Shown: in pieces, positions 36,477 through 48,252 of the stretch | Numbering within the stretch: the first letter of the stretch is position 1 | How the letters are laid out: each line of letters opens with the position of its first letter | Assembly (NCBI GenBank): GCA_949285785.1 | Contig: CASEAG010000039.1 | Span: 1 to 64,000 of the forward strand | Length of the DNA stretch: 64,000 nucleotides | Direction: 5' to 3' | From: an uncultured Spirochaetales bacterium | Lineage (GTDB): Bacteria > Spirochaetota > Spirochaetia > Sphaerochaetales > Sphaerochaetaceae | Program-made: the position numbers and the translations under genes | The notes under the pieces: generated by a model | Seen by the model: only the letters and a program-made list of their open reading frames with translations | The model's database searches: none | Told to the model about the DNA's origin: nothing

Positions 36477-37691
36477 CGAGAAGCTGACTTTCTGTCCTGT
36501 TCCGGGGTGGGTGAACTCCAGACTTTCGGCATGAAGGCATAGCCTCTGGCCGGGCTTGCGCGTGCCGTACAGCCTGTCCCCCACCACAGGATGTCCAAGT
36601 CCGTAGGCCGCATGCACTCTTATCTGGTGGGTCCGTCCGGTATGGGGGATGAAGCGGATGCGAGTGACGGGCCGCCCATCCACGATCTCCACTCCGATTC
36701 TCTGGAAACGGGTCACTGCCTTGCGCCCCATCTGCATGTCGACGATCTGCCGCGGCCTGTCCTCCACGTCCAGTCTCATGGGAAGGTCTATCGTGCCTTC
36801 ATCCTGCCTGACGACGCCTTCAACGAGGGCGATGTAGGTCTTTTTCGTCGTCCGCTGTTCGAACTGCCTGGATATCCCGCGCTTGGCATCGTCCGTCTTG
36901 GCCATCACGAGGATGCCGGAGGTGTCCATGTCCAGGCGGTGCACAGACGGGTTCTGCGGAATCGAGGGGAATATGTCACGGGCCCGCTTCGTGGCGCAGT
37001 CCTGCTTGTCTTCTCCGCGTCCCGGCACGGAGAGCATCCCCTCGGGCTTGTCCACGACGATGATCTCGTCGTCGCTGTAGATCATCGGTATGCGGAGAAT
37101 ATGCGGCAGAATGGGCGCGCACTTCTCGTCGCATGGTGTGCACATCTGCATGTGGGAGTATCGTGTGCTGCCATGACCGTAGTAAATCTCGCACAGGCTC
37201 AGCGGCTCCCAGCCGCGCCGGAAGCAGTAGGATATCAGCTTGATCGTGGCGCAGTCGCCCGTGCCTGTCGGGATTCCGGCAAGCCCCATCTCGTCCAGCT
37301 TCACCGTTCCGATGGGGGTGTGGAACGTGTACAGGGCCCTGAGCCTGGCAAGACATTCGTTCGACAGTGCGCTTCGCATCGGCTCGAGTCCCTCCTCCCC
37401 ACGCTCGATCCTGTCGCTGTAGCAATGGATGAGGCTGTCGTACTCGCCGATGATGTCTTCAGCCTCGTGCGCCGAGAAGCATGGCGGGACGAAGCCCTTG
37501 TGGATGTAGGAGCCGTGAAGCGCTCCGGAGAATGCATGGACAGTGCAGGTCTGGCCACCGGCGGCCCGCGCGACCAGACAGCCGAACATGATGCCGTCCC
37601 TGTCCTCGGAGATGACTCCGTCCGCCTCGAGTGACGCGATGAGGTCGACCAGAGGTCCTCTGGCCGCATCCGGCGAGAGAAGCTGCAGCAT
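36459..37691 (-). CDS. RluA-family 23S rRNA/tRNA pseudouridine synthase, two-domain form
   Basis: A 410-residue enzyme that isomerises uridine to pseudouridine. The catalytic domain is C-terminal: PMIYSDDEIIVVDKPEGMLSVPG, then the catalytic Asp in VHRLDMDTSGILVMAK, TKKTYIALVEG and RIRFIPHTGRTHQIRVHAA. About 185 extra N-terminal residues (MLQLLSPDAARGPLVDLI..., CATIKLISYCFRRGWEPLSL) resemble the leading domain seen in long RluA proteins of some proteobacteria. The target base is unknown. It is the last gene of an operon with the GH36-like gene and gpsA; its ATG overlaps the gpsA stop. Confidence 0.85.
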   Translation of the reverse strand: MLQLLSPDAARGPLVDLIASLEADGVISEDRDGIMFGCLVARAAGGQTCTVHAFSGALHGSYIHKGFVPPCFSAHEAEDIIGEYDSLIHCYSDRIERGEEGLEPMRSALSNECLARLRALYTFHTPIGTVKLDEMGLAGIPTGTGDCATIKLISYCFRRGWEPLSLCEIYYGHGSTRYSHMQMCTPCDEKCAPILPHILRIPMIYSDDEIIVVDKPEGMLSVPGRGEDKQDCATKRARDIFPSIPQNPSVHRLDMDTSGILVMAKTDDAKRGISRQFEQRTTKKTYIALVEGVVRQDEGTIDLPMRLDVEDRPRQIVDMQMGRKAVTRFQRIGVEIVDGRPVTRIRFIPHTGRTHQIRVHAAYGLGHPVVGDRLYGTRKPGQRLCLHAESLEFTHPGTGQKVSFSSPCPF

Positions 37692-38659
37692 CAGCCGATC
37701 ACCGAGAGTATGTAGTCGTTGAGCGTCGCCCCTTCGTACAACAGGCGGTAGAGGGCCTGGACGATTGGGTAGTCGTTCTCGACACCCCGCTCGCGCGTGA
37801 GCTCGCCCAGCAGCCTTATCGTCCTGTGGCCCTCGACCAGCGTCGCGGTGTTTCCCGTGCTGTAGTCGAAGCCCTTGCCGATGAGCATTCCAAGCGTCCT
37901 GTTGCGGGACAGGTCGTTCAGGCCGGTGAGGCCGAGGTCTCCGATGGCGCAGTAGCGGAAGATCGTCTCCTCGTCGCAGTTGAACATCCTCAGGAAGGCA
38001 CGCATCTCGTTGACGGCCCTGGTGTAGACGAGGAAGTCGACGTTCGGGCTGGAGTAGCGTCCCGAGACGACGCCGATCGCGATTGCGTACATGTTCTTCA
38101 GTATGCTGGTCAGCTCGACGCCACGCACGTCGTCTGTGTGGTCGAGCATGAGGCTGGTGCCCTTGAAGACCTCCTTCTTCACATACAGATAGTCCTCCCG
38201 GCTTCCGCCGAAGGTGAAGGCCGTCGGCATGCCGTTGAGGACCTCGATGGCGAAGCTTGGCCCCTTCATGCTGGCCGTTCTCGAGAATGGTATCTTCTCG
38301 GTGATGAACGCACCGTCGTCGCTCATGCCCTTGGCCAGATTGACCACCAGAGGCTCCCTGTCTCCGGTGTACCTGCGCATCTCCTGCGAGAAGCTGACGA
38401 TCGCCTTGGACGGGATGACCAGGAATATGGCGTCGGCGTCGCCGAAGACGGAGTAGTCGCCGCTTGCCGTCAGGTTCATGTTCAGAAAGCGGGTGGGGAA
38501 GTACTTCACGTTCCTGTGCTGACCATTGATGGTCTGCACGACGTCCTGTTCCACGGAATGGATCACGACATGGTTCTCGCTGTTCCATGCCAGGCGCTCC
38601 GCCATCGCCGTTCCGAATACGCCGCCTCCTGCGACGACTATGTTGTTCTTCCTCTGCAT
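37691..38659 (-). CDS. gpsA: NAD(P)-dependent glycerol-3-phosphate dehydrogenase
   Basis: Reduces dihydroxyacetone phosphate to glycerol-3-phosphate for phospholipid synthesis. The nucleotide loop is VVAGGGVFGTAMAERLA near the N-terminus. VVNLAKGM, MKGPSFAIEVLNGMPTAF, the catalytic Lys region LTSILKNMYAIAIGV, and RAVNEMRAFLRMF are family blocks, as is GDLGLTGLNDLSRNR. The GGGVFG loop differs slightly from the usual GAGxWG. It begins 6 nt after the GH36-like gene, an odd partner for a core lipid gene. Confidence 0.9.
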   Translation of the reverse strand: MQRKNNIVVAGGGVFGTAMAERLAWNSENHVVIHSVEQDVVQTINGQHRNVKYFPTRFLNMNLTASGDYSVFGDADAIFLVIPSKAIVSFSQEMRRYTGDREPLVVNLAKGMSDDGAFITEKIPFSRTASMKGPSFAIEVLNGMPTAFTFGGSREDYLYVKKEVFKGTSLMLDHTDDVRGVELTSILKNMYAIAIGVVSGRYSSPNVDFLVYTRAVNEMRAFLRMFNCDEETIFRYCAIGDLGLTGLNDLSRNRTLGMLIGKGFDYSTGNTATLVEGHRTIRLLGELTRERGVENDYPIVQALYRLLYEGATLNDYILSVIG

Positions 38660-38665
38660 ATGTCC

Positions 38666-40936
38666 TCAATCCTCCCTGGCGTCTATCCTGCGCACCACGT
38701 ACAGTCTGGTGGAATGGTCGCCCATGACCCTCATGTCCTCGCTGTACCCGGCTCCCTGATAGCCTCTGTCAAGTCTTATCCCCGCATGTCTGAGCGTGTC
38801 TCCGCCGACGACATACGACTCCTTCTCCATCGGCGGGGCGCTGTAGTAGTCATCCCCCAGGATGACCTCCTCGTCCTCGTTCCTGCGCGTGACGCTGTAG
38901 AGCGCGTTCTCGTCTGCATCCTCGACGTAGAGTATGTCGTCGCTGCCGTTTGCCTCCATGTTCCTCAGTGCGTATAGCACAAGGATCGTGGACGCATCGG
39001 CATCCGATGCGCTCAGCATGATCTTCTGGCCTTCCTGCCTGACACGGTAGCGTCCGAACTGCGTCACCTGGCGATACATCTTGTAGAACTCGAGCTGGTC
39101 GACGATCGCCTGACGCTCCTTGCGCGAGAGCCTCTTGAGATCCAGCGAGTAGGACAGGGCCCCGAACACGGCCACGTTGAAGGCGCTGGAGAAGCTGGAA
39201 TAGCGGCCTTCGATGTTGTATCGTCTGGATGCCAGCATGGTGGACAGGCACGAGGGCGGCATGATCTGCAGTGCGCCGCACAGCGAGTCCAGCTGCTCGA
39301 ACGGATCGGTCAGCGAGCAGCAGGTCACCTGGGACGATGACGCGAGCAGCCCGACATCAAGCCGTGGACTGGTGTCGCTGGTGTTCTCCATGAGCAGGTT
39401 CGGGAAGCTCAGCTGGATAGAGCGCTGCAGCTTGTAGAATGCGCAGATGTAGTTGTGACGCCACTGGCCGTCCGGCTTGTCCGAACGCGACCAGATGTCG
39501 CCCATCTGGGTTCCTATGGACCAGCGCAGGGCGTCTATGCCCGTGCGTTCGATCAGACCGCATATCGTCTCGAGCACGTATTCGTAGACCTCATGCCGCG
39601 TGATGTCCAGAAGATACTGTCCGTTCTCGATCGGGGATGACTTCCTCCTGGGGTTCCTCACCAGCCAGTCGGGATGCTCCATCGCCAGCCTGCTGTGGAG
39701 GCTGACAGCCTCCGGCGACAGCCATATGCCGAAGAGCATGCCCGCCAGATGGCATTCCCTGGATATCTCGGCAAGCCCGTCCGGAAGCTTCATCGGATTC
39801 GCGCTCCAGTCTCCGACCGAGTCGTCCTTCGTGTTCCTGACGCCGAACCAGCCGTCGTCCAGCATGAACAGCTCGAAGCCCATCTGTCCGGCGAGCCTGA
39901 TCTGCTCGCGCACCTTGCGCTCCTGGACGTCGAGTCCCAGCGCATGGCGGGTGTTGAAGCATACCGGGCGCAGTCTGTTGCACCAGGTGCCCCTCATGAT
40001 GTGGTTCTCCTCGAAATGCTGCAGGGCGTATGTGCATCGGCTGCGGTCCTCGGCAAGCGTGAGGAAGGCTTCGGGTGTCTCGAAGGACTCTCCCGGCTCC
40101 AGAGTCGGGTGGACCGTCTCCTCGTTGATGCCGTTGACGATGTGCGTCGTGCCGTAGGGGCTGACCTCTATGGTCGCCTTGTGGTCCCCGCAGTACAGCA
40201 GCCCCGTGATGATGCAGCCCTGGCGTCCCTCGATGATGAACGTGTTCGACTTCTGGCCGGTGAAGCCGGACCTCGATTCGTTGACCATGGTGGCGTATGA
40301 GAGCCGCTGGGTGCGCGGCCTGTTCTCACGTCCCCAGGGACCGCCGATGAACGTCACGCTCCGGTCGCAGTCGAAGAGGTCAAGCTGCATGCTTGCGAAC
40401 TTCCTCAGCATGACGGCCCGTCTGGAGGTGTTCTTGATGACGGCACGTCTCACGATGGTGTCACAGAGGGGGAAGACCGTGTAGTAGAGGCTGAGCGTGA
40501 TGTCGTTCAGGTCGTCCTGGAAGTCGAGCCTCAGGCCGTGCACCTCATCATCGCTGCCGAGAGCCTGCGGCAGACCGCTCGTGATTCTCCTGATTCCGTT
40601 GAACGTCTCGCTATGGCGGTATCTGATGTCCATTCCGCAGGCACAGCCTCTGGCCTCGTCGATGGCGATGAACGGGGTGCGGAAGTCGCCGCCTCCCTCG
40701 AAGGACGCCTCCTGCGGCAGGTCTACCGGGTTGGTCTGCCAGTCACGGGCGCTCTGCGACACCTCCCCCTGGCGCGGCACGGATCTCTTGGGCACGAGGG
40801 CGTCCACATCATGCTCCGGGTGTCTGAGGGCGGGGCCGTAGTACAGATGCTCGGCGATGCCGCGTCCATCGATCATGAACACGTAGCTGGTGTGGCTGGT
40901 CGCCAGGTGGAAAACATTGTTCTTGACTGTTATCAT
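38666..40936 (-). CDS. GH36 alpha-galactosidase homologue lacking both catalytic aspartates
   Basis: A 756-residue protein with the GH36 architecture. It has an N-terminal beta-sandwich (SHTSYVFMIDGRGIAEHLYYG, GDFRTP), a TIM barrel and a C-terminal beta domain. Barrel landmarks are FNTRHALGLD, FELFMLDDGWFG, GDWSANPMKLPDGL and GIWLSPEAV. In active GH36 enzymes the nucleophile lies in a KWDMN-type motif; here it is ALRWSIGTQ (W472, S473). The acid/base Asp of the WTSDxTD motif aligns with Ser541 in TCCSLTDPFEQ, and the CSSGGGR loop is TSDTSPR. By those rules it should not hydrolyse galactosides by the retaining mechanism. It may bind sugars, or have gained another activity. Start ATG 40936 follows AAGGA; gpsA is 6 nt downstream. 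Confidence 0.85.
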   Translation of the reverse strand: MITVKNNVFHLATSHTSYVFMIDGRGIAEHLYYGPALRHPEHDVDALVPKRSVPRQGEVSQSARDWQTNPVDLPQEASFEGGGDFRTPFIAIDEARGCACGMDIRYRHSETFNGIRRITSGLPQALGSDDEVHGLRLDFQDDLNDITLSLYYTVFPLCDTIVRRAVIKNTSRRAVMLRKFASMQLDLFDCDRSVTFIGGPWGRENRPRTQRLSYATMVNESRSGFTGQKSNTFIIEGRQGCIITGLLYCGDHKATIEVSPYGTTHIVNGINEETVHPTLEPGESFETPEAFLTLAEDRSRCTYALQHFEENHIMRGTWCNRLRPVCFNTRHALGLDVQERKVREQIRLAGQMGFELFMLDDGWFGVRNTKDDSVGDWSANPMKLPDGLAEISRECHLAGMLFGIWLSPEAVSLHSRLAMEHPDWLVRNPRRKSSPIENGQYLLDITRHEVYEYVLETICGLIERTGIDALRWSIGTQMGDIWSRSDKPDGQWRHNYICAFYKLQRSIQLSFPNLLMENTSDTSPRLDVGLLASSSQVTCCSLTDPFEQLDSLCGALQIMPPSCLSTMLASRRYNIEGRYSSFSSAFNVAVFGALSYSLDLKRLSRKERQAIVDQLEFYKMYRQVTQFGRYRVRQEGQKIMLSASDADASTILVLYALRNMEANGSDDILYVEDADENALYSVTRRNEDEEVILGDDYYSAPPMEKESYVVGGDTLRHAGIRLDRGYQGAGYSEDMRVMGDHSTRLYVVRRIDARED

Positions 40937-40987
40937 GTAAGAGGTGTCCTTCTCTGTTATGATACATTTACGGGAGCGTGTTGGCAA
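40937..40987. promoter_or_regulatory. 51-bp divergent promoter region, GH36-like / mutarotase-like
   Basis: The spacer contains TATGAT (40958-40963), which also reads as TATCAT for -10 elements on the opposite strand, so both genes may use the same bases. GGGAG (40973-40977) serves the plus-strand gene. Common control of the two genes is likely. Confidence 0.35.
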
Positions 40988-42187
40988 ATGGATATAAGGC
41001 GCATACCACTTTGGGAGTCGCGGAACGCTACTTACATGAGCAACAACCTGGTGCGCACCGTCATAGAGGACCAGGGCGAGGTCGCCATCGAGCTGTCGGC
41101 CAGATGCATCCAGGGCGGTTATGTCAATGCGCTTGGCCTGCCGTACTTCCGCGGGCGGGGCATCGGTGTCCTGTCCGACCAGAACGCCGACTGGTGGAAG
41201 AGCCGCCAGAGCTTCTACCAGGCCGGTGGCATCTACGTGACGTTCCCCTCGAAGGACGAGGACAGCATACTCACCAGCAACACGTACTGGATGGTGCGCC
41301 GCTACGGGTCGGACGGAGAGAGCGGCGGGCTGTGGAGGCTCAGCGAGATGAAGAGCCGGCAGGAGCACAACCGCTACCGCGCCACCAAGGTGGACATGAT
41401 CCTGCCGGACCATCCGGTGCTCTACTCCCTGGTGAGACTTGTCAACACGGGCGACGAGGACCTCGAGTACAACGCCGGCGTGCATACCATGCTCTCTCCT
41501 CCATTCCTGGAGTCGGGATGTTTCATGAACACCGTCCCGGCGACTTTCTCTGCATACAGCCCCAACTTCCGCGAGGTGGCATTCAACCGCCTGAGAAGCG
41601 GCGTGCACTTCAACGACCTGCGCCACGCCCCGTCGCTGAACGGCATGCCGCTGGACGCCTCGTACATACCCGGACCGACCGGTTCATACGACTATCTGGC
41701 AGGGGAGGTGTCCAATGGAGAGGAGCTGGGCTGGATCACCGTGATCAACCCGCGTCTGCAGATGGTCTACATGATCCTGTTCCCGACGCCGTACACGCAT
41801 CTGGACGACAGCGTGATGAAGTGTCCTGACATCGACATCGCCGTGAATCTGCTGGGACGTATGGACAGTCCGTGGGCGCTGTACGAGGGCGGAACGCCCC
41901 AGGTCTTCAGCCTCACTCTCGGTCATGGCCGTCTGGACCATCACGGAGCGTTCAGCTCCCCGACATCGTACTTCCTCAAGCCTGGCCAGTGGACGGACCT
42001 CGTGTCGGCACAGGCTCTGACGAGCTACGAGAACCCCAGGATATCCTCAGGCTTCTACTCGCTTGAGAAGGAGCCGGGGGCGCTGGTGCTCAAGCGCACC
42101 AAGAGCTTTGCCATGGTGCCGTGCGACTACACGTTCTCGACGCTCAGGACCCTAGCCGAGAAGCTCATCAGGAACGCCCAGGAATAG
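40988..42187 (+). CDS. uncharacterised protein with mutarotase-like beta-sandwich features
   Basis: A 399-residue cytoplasmic protein. It contains LVRTVIEDQGEVAIELSARC, YSLVRLVNTGDEDLEYNAGVHTML and GELGW-like WITVINPRLQMVYMILF. These short strands with the conserved VNTG-E pattern recall galactose-mutarotase-fold proteins (DUF4432-like). I do not recognise the exact family, and the general fold is inference. It is divergent from the inactive-looking GH36 gene across 51 bp, so a joint role in sugar recognition or metabolism is likely. The frame runs far upstream through the GH36 gene; ATG 40988 with GGGAG 10 nt before it is the real start. Confidence 0.65.
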   Translation: MDIRRIPLWESRNATYMSNNLVRTVIEDQGEVAIELSARCIQGGYVNALGLPYFRGRGIGVLSDQNADWWKSRQSFYQAGGIYVTFPSKDEDSILTSNTYWMVRRYGSDGESGGLWRLSEMKSRQEHNRYRATKVDMILPDHPVLYSLVRLVNTGDEDLEYNAGVHTMLSPPFLESGCFMNTVPATFSAYSPNFREVAFNRLRSGVHFNDLRHAPSLNGMPLDASYIPGPTGSYDYLAGEVSNGEELGWITVINPRLQMVYMILFPTPYTHLDDSVMKCPDIDIAVNLLGRMDSPWALYEGGTPQVFSLTLGHGRLDHHGAFSSPTSYFLKPGQWTDLVSAQALTSYENPRISSGFYSLEKEPGALVLKRTKSFAMVPCDYTFSTLRTLAEKLIRNAQE

Positions 42188-44595: not shown

Positions 44596-45630
44596 ATGAA
44601 TGAAAGACACCTCTCGATAGGCTGCTCCGGCTTCAGCTGGCACACTACGGATGGAAGACACCTTCTCGGCCGTACATACGACATGTTCGGTGACCTGAAG
44701 GCCAACCGGATCACTCTGGTCGCACCCGGCTATGGCCTGGCCTCCAGCCCGGGAGAAGGAACAGGGCGCATCAGGCTGGAATACGGCTTCATCGGCAACG
44801 CGATACAGGGCTCGACCTCCCCGATATTCACCGACGGGGTGAACGAGCACGGTCTGATGGGCACTCTGCAGAACTATCCCGGATACGGACACTACGATAC
44901 GTACAAGGACCAGGGCCGGGTCGATCTGCATCCTGCCTTCCTGGTGCCGTACATGCTTGGCACCTGCACGAGCGTGGAGGATGTCGCCAAGGCCGTGGAC
45001 AGGATCAACCTGACGGGCGAGCCGATCTTCTCTGCCCATATGAGCGTGCACTATCTCTTCGGCGACGAAAGCGGCGAGGCCATCATCATCGAACCGGACG
45101 AGGGCGGCATCAGGGTGCACCGCGACACGATAGGCGTCATGACCAACGCCCCGGGCTACGAGTGGCAGTACACCAACCTGAAGAACTATGTCGCTGTCTC
45201 GAACATCCATACCCCGCCTCGCGATCTCCTCGGTCGCAGCATCTCCACGTTCGGATCAGGAACCGGAGGCAGCTTCGGCCTTCCGGGAGGCTTCTCGTCC
45301 CCGGACCGCTTCGTGCGCCTGGCATTCGCCAAGAACTATGCAACCCCGGGTTCCTGCGAGAAGGAGGGCGTGTCGCGCATGTTCGACACGTTCAGCATCG
45401 TCCATGTGCCTGAGGGTATGCTCGTCGGGAAGGAGGGCTCGTCCGAGTGCGAGAAGACGCTGTGCACATGCGTCATGTGCGCCGAGAGCCGTACGTACTA
45501 CTTCTCTCCGTACGGCAACCGCAGGATCAGCTCATATGATCTGACCAGGGCCCTCTCCTCGCTTGGGGACGGAGAGCTCGTCAGACTCTACGACATCGAC
45601 TTCGAGGAGGACATCAGGGTCGTCGTCTGA
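44596..45630 (+). CDS. choloylglycine hydrolase-family (linear amide C-N hydrolase)
   Basis: A 344-residue Ntn hydrolase related to bile salt hydrolase and penicillin V acylase. The likely nucleophile is Cys10 in LSIGCSGFSW, to be exposed by removal of a 9-residue leader, as in Bacillus penicillin V acylase. The early GRTYDM carries the conserved Arg-Asp, VNEHGL is the next block, and NAPGYEWQYTNLKNY matches the conserved NxP...N region. AAGGAGG precedes the ATG. The natural substrate (bile salts, acyl-homoserine lactones or other N-acyl amides) cannot be told. No signal peptide is seen. Confidence 0.85.
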   Translation: MNERHLSIGCSGFSWHTTDGRHLLGRTYDMFGDLKANRITLVAPGYGLASSPGEGTGRIRLEYGFIGNAIQGSTSPIFTDGVNEHGLMGTLQNYPGYGHYDTYKDQGRVDLHPAFLVPYMLGTCTSVEDVAKAVDRINLTGEPIFSAHMSVHYLFGDESGEAIIIEPDEGGIRVHRDTIGVMTNAPGYEWQYTNLKNYVAVSNIHTPPRDLLGRSISTFGSGTGGSFGLPGGFSSPDRFVRLAFAKNYATPGSCEKEGVSRMFDTFSIVHVPEGMLVGKEGSSECEKTLCTCVMCAESRTYYFSPYGNRRISSYDLTRALSSLGDGELVRLYDIDFEEDIRVVV

Positions 45631-45687: not shown

Positions 45688-48252
45688 ATGAAGGTGATAG
45701 TGATCGGAGGAGTCGCTGCCGGTACCAAGGCGGCGGCCAAGTTGAAAAGGGAGGACAGGAGCGCCCACGTCAGGCTCCTGACGAAAGGCCATGACATCTC
45801 CTATGCGGGATGCGGTCTGCCGTATTACATATCCTCGGTCATTGAGGACAGGGGTGATCTGATCGTCAACACCCCCGAAAAGTTCAGCGCACTCACAGGC
45901 GTAGAGGTCGTCACCGGGGCGGAGGTCACGGGCGTGGACTTCTCCTCGAAGACCGTCACCTATGTGCATGGAGGACAGAAGAGGGACGAGTCCTATGACA
46001 GGCTCGTCATCGCCACAGGTGCGTCGAGCATCGTCCCGCCGGTTCCAGGCGTGGATCTCGATGGAGTCTTCAGCGTGAGGACGCCGGATGATGCACAGGC
46101 GATACGGGACTGGATCCGCGCCGATGGCGTGCGCCGCGCCGTGGTCGCCGGAGCCGGATTCATAGGTCTGGAGGTGGCCGAGAACCTCAGGTCCGCCGGA
46201 CTGTCCGTGACCGTCATCGACATGGCCGGCAACATCATGCCCAACGCCTTCGACGACGAGATGGCCACCTGGGCCCGCCGTCGCATCGAGGAGGCCGGCA
46301 TCAGGGTGATGACAGGTACCAGGCTCGAAGGAGTGGAAGGAGAGGGCAGAGTCGGTGCGGTGCGCACGGACAAGGCCGTCCTTCCTGCCGACATGCTCAT
46401 CCTTGCGCTCGGTGTCAGGCCCTCCACCGCATTCCTCGAAGGCAGCGGAATCGAGATGGAGAAGGGCGCCATCGTCGTGGACGGACACATGAGGACGAAC
46501 ATCGACGACGTATACGCCGCAGGCGACTGCGCGCTTGTGACCAGCCGTCTGACCGGCAGGAGGATGTATTCGGCGATGGGCTCCACTGCGAACCTCGGTG
46601 CAAGGGTCCTTGCCCAGTCCGTCGCAGGACGTGACAGTGTCTATCCCGGAGCCCTCGGGACAGGTGTCGTAAGACTTCTCGACACTCTCAACGCCGCACG
46701 CACCGGACTGACCGAGGAGGCGGCGGTGAAGGAAGGCTATGATGTGGTCAGCGCATTGGCCGTCACGGATGACAAGGCGCACTATTACGCGGGCTCATCG
46801 TTCTTCATAATGAAGATGATAGCCGAGCGCAAGACGCATCGCATCCTAGGCTTCCAGGTGCTGGGATCCGGAGCCGTGGACAAGATGAACGACATCGCCG
46901 TGGTGGCGGTGTCGAAGGGCATGAAGGTCGAGGATTTCGATTCGATGGACTTCTCCTACGCCCCTCCGTTCTCCACTGCGATAAGCCCGTTCGTGCAGGT
47001 CTGCTGTGTGCTTGAGAACAAGATCCTGGGACAGCTCGAGACGATGACGCCTGCCGAGTACGCCGCGACCAGAGCCGCCGGCTACAAGGTGGTCGACGTC
47101 ATGCCGGAGAAAACCATACCCGGAGCGACATGGGTGGACCTCGGCAAGGTAGACGGACCAGTGGAGGGACTTGGCAAGGACGACAGGCTGCTGCTGGTAT
47201 GCGCTCGTGGCAAACGGGGCTACTTCCTCCAGAACAGGCTGAAGGCCTTCGGCTATACCGCCACCAGGGTGCTCGAGGGTGGCATGACGTTCAACGACGT
47301 GCGGGTGGACTTTGCCGGAGCGATTCCTCCGGAGGAGGTGAAGCGCGTCAAGGGACTTGGCTGTCTGCAGGACAAGAGACGGCCAGACCACTTCAACGTG
47401 CGTGTCATAACCCGGAACGGCAAGATCACGGCACATGAGCAGAAGGCCATCGCCGAGGCGGCACAGCGATGGGGAAGCGGGGAGGTGACCATGACCACCC
47501 GCCTCACGCTCGAGATACAGGGCGTGCAGTACTCGGACATCGAGCCTCTGATCGCGTTCCTCAAGGAGCATGGACTCGACACCGGAGGGACCGGAAGCAA
47601 GGTGCGGCCGGTCGTCTCGTGCAAGGGCACGACCTGCCAGTACGGCCTGATAGACACCTTCGCCCTCTCCGAGAGGCTTCATGAGACCTTCTACGTAGGC
47701 TGGCACGACGTGTCGCTTCCGCACAAGTTCAAGATCGCGGTCGGCGGCTGTCCCAACAACTGCGTCAAGCCCAGTCTCAACGACATCGGCATCGTGGGTC
47801 AGCGTCTGGTCTCGTTCGACATGGACAGGTGCCGCGGCTGCAGGGCCTGCCAGGTGGAGAAGTCCTGCCCGATCCGCATCGCCCATGTCGAGGAGGGCAG
47901 GCTGGTGGTGGACGATGCACAGTGCAACCACTGCGGACGCTGTCTGGACAAGTGTCCCTTCGGCGTCACCTCGTCGTATGTCGGAGGCTATGCGGTATAC
48001 GTCGGTGGAAGATGGGGCAAGAAGGTCGAGATCGGCAAGCGGCTGAGCCGCATCCTCCACAGCGAGGACGAAGTGGTGCAGGTGGTGGAGAACGCCATAC
48101 TCCTGTTCCGCGACGAAGGCATCAGCGGCGAGCGCTTCGCCGACACGGTCAACAGGCTCGGCCTGGAGCATGTCGAGGACAGGCTCTTCGACTCCAGGAT
48201 TGACAAGCAGGCCGTGCTGAAGAAGAATGTAGTCGGCGGGGCGACCTGCTGA
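45688..48252 (+). CDS. four-part fusion: CoA-disulfide reductase, rhodanese, sirohaem sulfite-reductase half, ferredoxin
   Basis: An 854-residue protein. Residues 1-440 are a CoA-disulfide-reductase/NADH-oxidase flavoprotein: IVIGGVAAGTKAA, catalytic Cys42 in YAGCGLPYYI, VAGAGFIGLEVAENL, NIDDVYAAGDCA. Residues about 455-560 are a rhodanese domain with Cys505 in LVCARGKRG. The next 200 residues carry the sulfite/nitrite-reductase sirohaem-[4Fe-4S] motif: C645-x4-C650 (SCKGTTCQYG) and C688-x3-C692 (GGCPNNCVKPS). A two-cluster ferredoxin follows (CRGCRACQVEKSC, CNHCGRCLDKCPFG), then a short helical tail. One polypeptide could pass electrons from NAD(P)H to sulfite or a persulfide sulfur. The AsrC subunit of anaerobic sulfite reductase has a similar sirohaem-ferredoxin arrangement. 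It is followed by a metal-chelate transporter. Confidence 0.88.
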   Translation: MKVIVIGGVAAGTKAAAKLKREDRSAHVRLLTKGHDISYAGCGLPYYISSVIEDRGDLIVNTPEKFSALTGVEVVTGAEVTGVDFSSKTVTYVHGGQKRDESYDRLVIATGASSIVPPVPGVDLDGVFSVRTPDDAQAIRDWIRADGVRRAVVAGAGFIGLEVAENLRSAGLSVTVIDMAGNIMPNAFDDEMATWARRRIEEAGIRVMTGTRLEGVEGEGRVGAVRTDKAVLPADMLILALGVRPSTAFLEGSGIEMEKGAIVVDGHMRTNIDDVYAAGDCALVTSRLTGRRMYSAMGSTANLGARVLAQSVAGRDSVYPGALGTGVVRLLDTLNAARTGLTEEAAVKEGYDVVSALAVTDDKAHYYAGSSFFIMKMIAERKTHRILGFQVLGSGAVDKMNDIAVVAVSKGMKVEDFDSMDFSYAPPFSTAISPFVQVCCVLENKILGQLETMTPAEYAATRAAGYKVVDVMPEKTIPGATWVDLGKVDGPVEGLGKDDRLLLVCARGKRGYFLQNRLKAFGYTATRVLEGGMTFNDVRVDFAGAIPPEEVKRVKGLGCLQDKRRPDHFNVRVITRNGKITAHEQKAIAEAAQRWGSGEVTMTTRLTLEIQGVQYSDIEPLIAFLKEHGLDTGGTGSKVRPVVSCKGTTCQYGLIDTFALSERLHETFYVGWHDVSLPHKFKIAVGGCPNNCVKPSLNDIGIVGQRLVSFDMDRCRGCRACQVEKSCPIRIAHVEEGRLVVDDAQCNHCGRCLDKCPFGVTSSYVGGYAVYVGGRWGKKVEIGKRLSRILHSEDEVVQVVENAILLFRDEGISGERFADTVNRLGLEHVEDRLFDSRIDKQAVLKKNVVGGATC

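Follow-up and report, generated by a model that had tools for sequence, protein, structure and literature searches.

Why would a gut spirochaete keep a full-length alpha-galactosidase homologue in which both catalytic aspartates are gone? The locus considered here, in a window of 64,000 nucleotides (the whole stretch analysed, from an uncultured Spirochaetales bacterium), raises two questions: (i) whether the catalytic residues are truly lost, in this genome and in its relatives; and (ii) what maintains the protein once they are.

The GH36 protein and its active site

The gene lies at 38666..40936 on the minus strand (ATG at 40936, TGA at 38666-38668) and encodes a protein of 756 aa, P0001, consisting of an N-terminal beta-supersandwich, a (beta/alpha)8 barrel and a C-terminal beta domain. 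All three GH36 Pfam domains are found above their cut-offs, Glyco_hydro_36N (PF16875) with 151 bits, Melibiase (PF02065) with 231.9 and Glyco_hydro_36C (PF16874) with 29, and the Melibiase match spans the complete profile (residues 284-628, E 1.3e-68); by this architecture P0001 belongs to GH36 as a sequence and fold family. Among solved structures its nearest relatives are GH36 alpha-galactosidases (~28% identity), with phmmer matches in the PDB to 3mi6 (E 1e-97), 2xn0 (E 4e-94) and AgaA, 4fnr (E 2e-89). An AlphaFold2 model built from an input alignment of 14 sequences has a pLDDT of 80.6 and a pTM of 0.86, and GH36 structures are also its best matches, AgaB (4fnq) standing first with Z 45.5 and an rmsd of 2.1 over 669 residues. 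By sequence and predicted fold, P0001 is a complete GH36 protein. It is like the tetrameric GH36 alpha-galactosidases (AgaA/AgaB of Geobacillus stearothermophilus, LaMel36A, 2xn0, and RgAgaSK, 2yfn) in its full-length three-domain architecture, in model Z scores of 43-45 and in the DDGWF and GDW motifs; it differs from them in having other residues at both catalytic Asp positions, in the CxGGGRF loop and in most of subsite -1.

In the GH36 enzyme galV, D478 is the nucleophile and D548 the acid/base, within the motifs KWD and SDxxD (PMC8509150); Asp478 and Asp548 of AgaA are the residues mutated in PDB entries 4fnu (D478A) and 4fnt (D548N), as given in the entry titles. The corresponding residues of P0001 are Ser473 (codon TCC, 39518..39520, minus strand) and Ser541 (codon TCG, 39314..39316, minus strand). 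The phmmer alignments to PDB GH36 structures are gap-free at both sites, and the same assignment is obtained in MAFFT alignments containing between 30 and 100 homologues. An alternative alignment that would restore a catalytic Asp is ruled out, since several methods give the same result and there is no relocated acidic residue; Asp468, Asp480 and Asp544, which lie near the two sites, are ordinary family residues present also in intact members, and no displaced Asp or Glu replacement was found there.

The sugar pocket is altered as well. The residues listed for subsite -1, in AgaA numbering, are Trp336, Asp366, Trp411, Arg443, Lys476, Trp545 and the CxGGGRF loop (PMC7688924). In P0001, Trp336 is replaced by Arg330, Arg443 by Asn438, Lys476 by Arg471 and the Trp of the WTSD motif (Trp545) by Thr538, and the loop reads NTSDTSPRL where CSxGGGRF is expected; Asp360 and Trp405 alone are kept. 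Two of nine active-site columns that are invariant in intact enzymes are unchanged. A sequence-only reading of this DNA had reported the two serines, a separation of 68 residues and the loss of the CSSGGGR loop; as judged from these alignments it was right and understated the extent of the loss. In AgaA the separation is 70 residues.

P0001 thus lacks the sequence features by which a GH36 alpha-galactosidase is recognized as an enzyme, namely the Asp nucleophile, the Asp acid/base and the full subsite -1 set. A GH36 protein without its nucleophile would not be expected to hydrolyse by the family mechanism; in P0001 the acid/base and most of subsite -1 are replaced as well, and the retaining double-displacement reaction should no longer be possible. 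We infer that P0001 is inactive on alpha-galactosides.

Orthologues in the genus

The window genome belongs to a genus, here g1, whose members include Candidatus Aphodenecus pullistercoris along with several uncultured Spirochaetales bins. A GH36 orthologue is present in all 16 g1 genomes, and ten members, including that of the window, form one clade (SH-aLRT support 100 in a quick tree search, stem length 0.82). The nine orthologues of P0001 in this pseudo clade are full length and 50-82% identical to it, which rules out a sequencing error or a pseudogene confined to one genome; the ten proteins are 733-760 aa long, with no frameshift or internal stop. Not one of the ten has Asp at both catalytic positions. 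The nucleophile position holds Ser (two members), Asn (six), Asp (one) or Glu (one), and the acid/base position Ser (three), Ala (six) or Val (one). The Ser/Ser pair itself occurs only in the window genome and its 82% relative, the other combinations being Asn/Ala, Asn/Val, Asp/Ser and Glu/Ala. As to whether the Ser/Ser form is conserved as a clade, there is a well-supported clade of proteins that have lost catalytic residues, but a conserved Ser/Ser catalytic pair is ruled out by its presence in only two of ten. Among the remaining g1 genomes, three (G002, G005, G010) have an intact GH36, one (G013) has Glu as the acid/base, one (G003) lacks the acid/base region through a deletion, and in one (G006) the gene is cut by the contig end.

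Repeated loss in the spirochaete family

Outside g1 and a second genus, g16, the catalytic Asp pair is intact in 31 of 32 full-length GH36 sequences of the family; these proteins occupy the same locus as P0001, with the same head-to-head partner and often with gpsA downstream, but differ from it in keeping both Asp. The exception is an isolated case in genus g4 (G018, locus L166), in which the pair reads Gly/Glu and the CxGGGRF loop is deleted, beside an intact sister (G016); the loss is apparently recent and separate. Within g1 and g16, 50 of 58 GH36 proteins lack one or both catalytic Asp. The g16 share is 38 of 43, and one g16 member (G101) is fully intact. In g16 the acid/base is replaced by Glu, Cys, Val, Ala, Lys, Arg, Tyr, Gln and others, and the nucleophile by Glu, Gly, Asn or Thr; some of these proteins, in particular those with Asp to Glu, might still be active.

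On the assumption that a lost residue is never regained, the tree implies that the Asp pair was lost about nine times independently (13 times for the acid/base and 8-9 for the nucleophile). The count for the pair is the same after weak branches are collapsed, and unordered parsimony gives seven changes. In four g16 genomes (G030, G119, G045, G133) the slot between the partner gene and gpsA is filled by a shrunken, strongly degenerate GH36 open reading frame of 614-625 aa and ~25% identity (L097:3763-5607, L098:7768-9636; also L139 and L148), whose placement on the tree is unsure owing to long branches. The genomes compared in this work as a whole are mostly metagenome bins.

Selection on the GH36 gene

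Nei-Gojobori dN/dS values, which are crude at high dS, are far below 1 in the pseudo clade: 0.154 for the window genome and G011, 0.052 for G012/G001, 0.063 for G009/G012 and 0.060 for G009/G001. An intact GH36 paralogue compared between G001 and G012 gives 0.098, and the range of 0.05-0.15 in the pseudo clade resembles that of active GH36 genes. The g16 members without the acid/base Asp give 0.023-0.05, and one g16 pair, G133/G045, gives 0.20. The lineage has thus lost its catalytic residues and kept purifying selection, as is characteristic of a pseudoenzyme.

Constraint is not spread evenly over the protein. Intact GH36 proteins have 92 invariant columns; the pseudo clade keeps a fraction of 0.68 of those outside the active site versus 0.21 of the nine active-site columns (permutation p ~0.001), so that losses have fallen on active-site residues more than on other conserved positions; the structural motifs are invariant in the dead clade. 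The constraint is nevertheless weaker on dead copies than on active ones and has been relaxed in part. Divergence of GH36 relative to that of its divergent neighbour, P0003, is 1.4-2.0x in dead pairs versus 0.6-1.1x where both members are intact, which indicates a constraint reduced about twofold yet still strong.

Organization of the locus

P0003, an uncharacterized gene of 399 aa at 40988..42187 on the plus strand, stands head-to-head with GH36 throughout the spirochaete family. The divergent start codons are separated by 51 bp in the window (40937..40987); the nearest orthologous loci have about the same spacing (~50 bp). On the other side lies gpsA, encoding NAD-dependent glycerol-3-phosphate dehydrogenase (37691..38659, minus strand). 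The GH36 stop is followed, 6 bases on, by the ATG of gpsA, whose ribosome-binding region therefore falls within the final part of GH36. The order P0003 (divergent), GH36, gpsA and an RluA-type pseudouridine synthase is found in the window and in the orthologous loci. In those g1 and g16 loci where the junction was measured, the stop of GH36 and the start of gpsA abut or overlap (gpsA is not resolved in G008 and falls outside the contig in G006).

A P0003 match is present in 101 of the family's 139 genomes. Among 93 loci examined it is head-to-head with GH36 in 91, the exceptions being one genome in which the genes are apart (G036) and one in which they are on different contigs (G034). GH36 is present in all 101 genomes that carry P0003 and in 20 of the 38 that do not, although these counts are not independent of phylogeny and synteny alone can persist by descent.

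P0003 represents a conserved spirochaete family of ~400 aa. It has no match in Pfam or NCBIfam, its profile finds nothing in a PDB sequence search, and comparison with aldose epimerases also gave nothing. In hhalign its similarity to DUF4432 (galactose mutarotase-like) has E 0.02 and a probability of 2%, and remote P0003-like proteins resemble the same family at E 0.016-0.035, below the cut-off; a mutarotase fold is a weak lead only. The remote P0003-like genes outside the spirochaete family have neighbourhoods with no consistent partner.

Two other genes in the window are noted here. The plus-strand gene at 44596-45630 encodes a choloylglycine hydrolase family protein (PF02275, E 9e-71), which in this gut bacterium may be a bile-salt hydrolase or an amidase related to one. 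The gene at 45688-48252 (plus strand) encodes 854 aa that, by eye, include CoA-disulfide reductase-like, rhodanese-like and sulfite-reductase/ferredoxin-like parts.

Possible explanations for the retained protein

The loss of residues, the full-length orthologues, the purifying selection and the repetition of the loss at one syntenic locus in related genomes are all observed. Together with 41 positions that have become fixed anew in all ten pseudo members, they make it probable that P0001 is a pseudo-alpha-galactosidase, kept as a folded protein for a candidate non-catalytic role. The sequence-only reading had likewise held that a full-length protein with its structural motifs was not in simple decay, and had considered either a pseudoenzyme, acting as sugar sensor or scaffold, or a changed reaction to be likely; the orthologues, the low dN/dS and the concentration of losses in the active site support a pseudoenzyme over simple decay.

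What the role might be is a more tentative matter. P0003 is found in this family only where there is a GH36, active or not, which favours GH36 as a non-catalytic scaffold or partner, P0003 being the first protein to consider; a structural or regulatory partner of P0003 is the most likely assignment, although we hold it with less than even confidence. The ancestral GH36 would already have had a second function besides hydrolysis; catalysis would then have become dispensable in two genera, and the folded protein would have been retained between P0003 and gpsA. Equally tentatively, P0003 and GH36 may constitute a two-gene module in which an alpha-galactosidase has become a non-catalytic subunit many times in gut spirochaetes. 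Several observations weigh against the pseudoenzyme explanation or the partnership. Four g16 genomes pair the shrunken GH36 with an ordinary P0003, whose divergence is no greater than usual, which argues against a tight interface between the two proteins, at least there; the 20 genomes with GH36 and no P0003 also count against the explanation, as does the faster evolution of GH36 than of P0003 in dead lineages, a sign of partly relaxed constraint. An obligate heteromer with a second, active GH36 is ruled out as a general role, there being no second GH36 in G011 (97% complete), in G004 or in about two fifths of the g16 genomes.

The main rival is slow decay, in which a dispensable former enzyme is kept open mainly as a leading cistron whose translation feeds gpsA. 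The tight coupling of the two genes in the measured g1 and g16 loci, the approximate doubling of the relative GH36 rate after catalytic loss, the degenerate versions at the same place in g16, the dN/dS of 0.20 in G133/G045 and the deletion in G003 all fit with it. Translational coupling, however, needs no amino-acid conservation across 750 residues, yet full-length copies show dN/dS of 0.02-0.15 and the structural motifs are invariant in the dead clade; the losses, moreover, are focused on the active site and not distributed evenly. We consider slow decay unlikely.

A changed reaction, with the pocket rebuilt for another substrate or chemistry through new conserved residues, is doubtful. Residues such as Gly475, Gln477, Asn518, Arg571 and Arg572 occur in every one of the ten pseudo members but seldom or never in intact ones, and 10 of the 41 positions newly fixed across the clade fall in pocket loops; this is not a significant enrichment when compared with the remainder of the barrel (Fisher p 0.22), and the former catalytic positions vary freely. 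A changed reaction built on two serines is spoken against by the rarity of the pair. A sugar sensor, raised in the sequence-only reading and here taken to bind an alpha-galactoside and pass a signal on to P0003 or gpsA, is very improbable: Trp405 is kept in nine and Asp360 in seven of the ten members, but the equivalents of Trp336, Arg443, Lys476 (to Arg), Trp545 and the CxGG loop are replaced, and a sensor of the same sugar is hard to reconcile with that pocket.

Implications

Pseudoenzymes are best known from eukaryotic signalling, and those with glycoside hydrolase folds include Klotho (GH1), the chitinase-like proteins (GH18) and 4F2hc/rBAT (GH13). Like P0001, these retain the hydrolase fold and have lost catalytic residues, and they act non-catalytically in complexes or in binding; they belong to other families and other hosts. 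A full-text search of open-licence papers found none that contained both GH36 and pseudoenzyme.

The locus described here is a bacterial one in which stages from enzyme to pseudoenzyme (intact, one substitution, both residues lost, shrunken) are found between the same neighbours, and it offers a natural series for dissecting an enzyme's second function. It also means that a GH36 annotation in gut spirochaete metagenome bins does not imply the use of alpha-galactosides, and it draws attention to P0003, a conserved family without a name. Finally, we note that if P0003 and GH36 do form a module, the active GH36 would already have had a structural or regulatory second function, and its partner would still need it.
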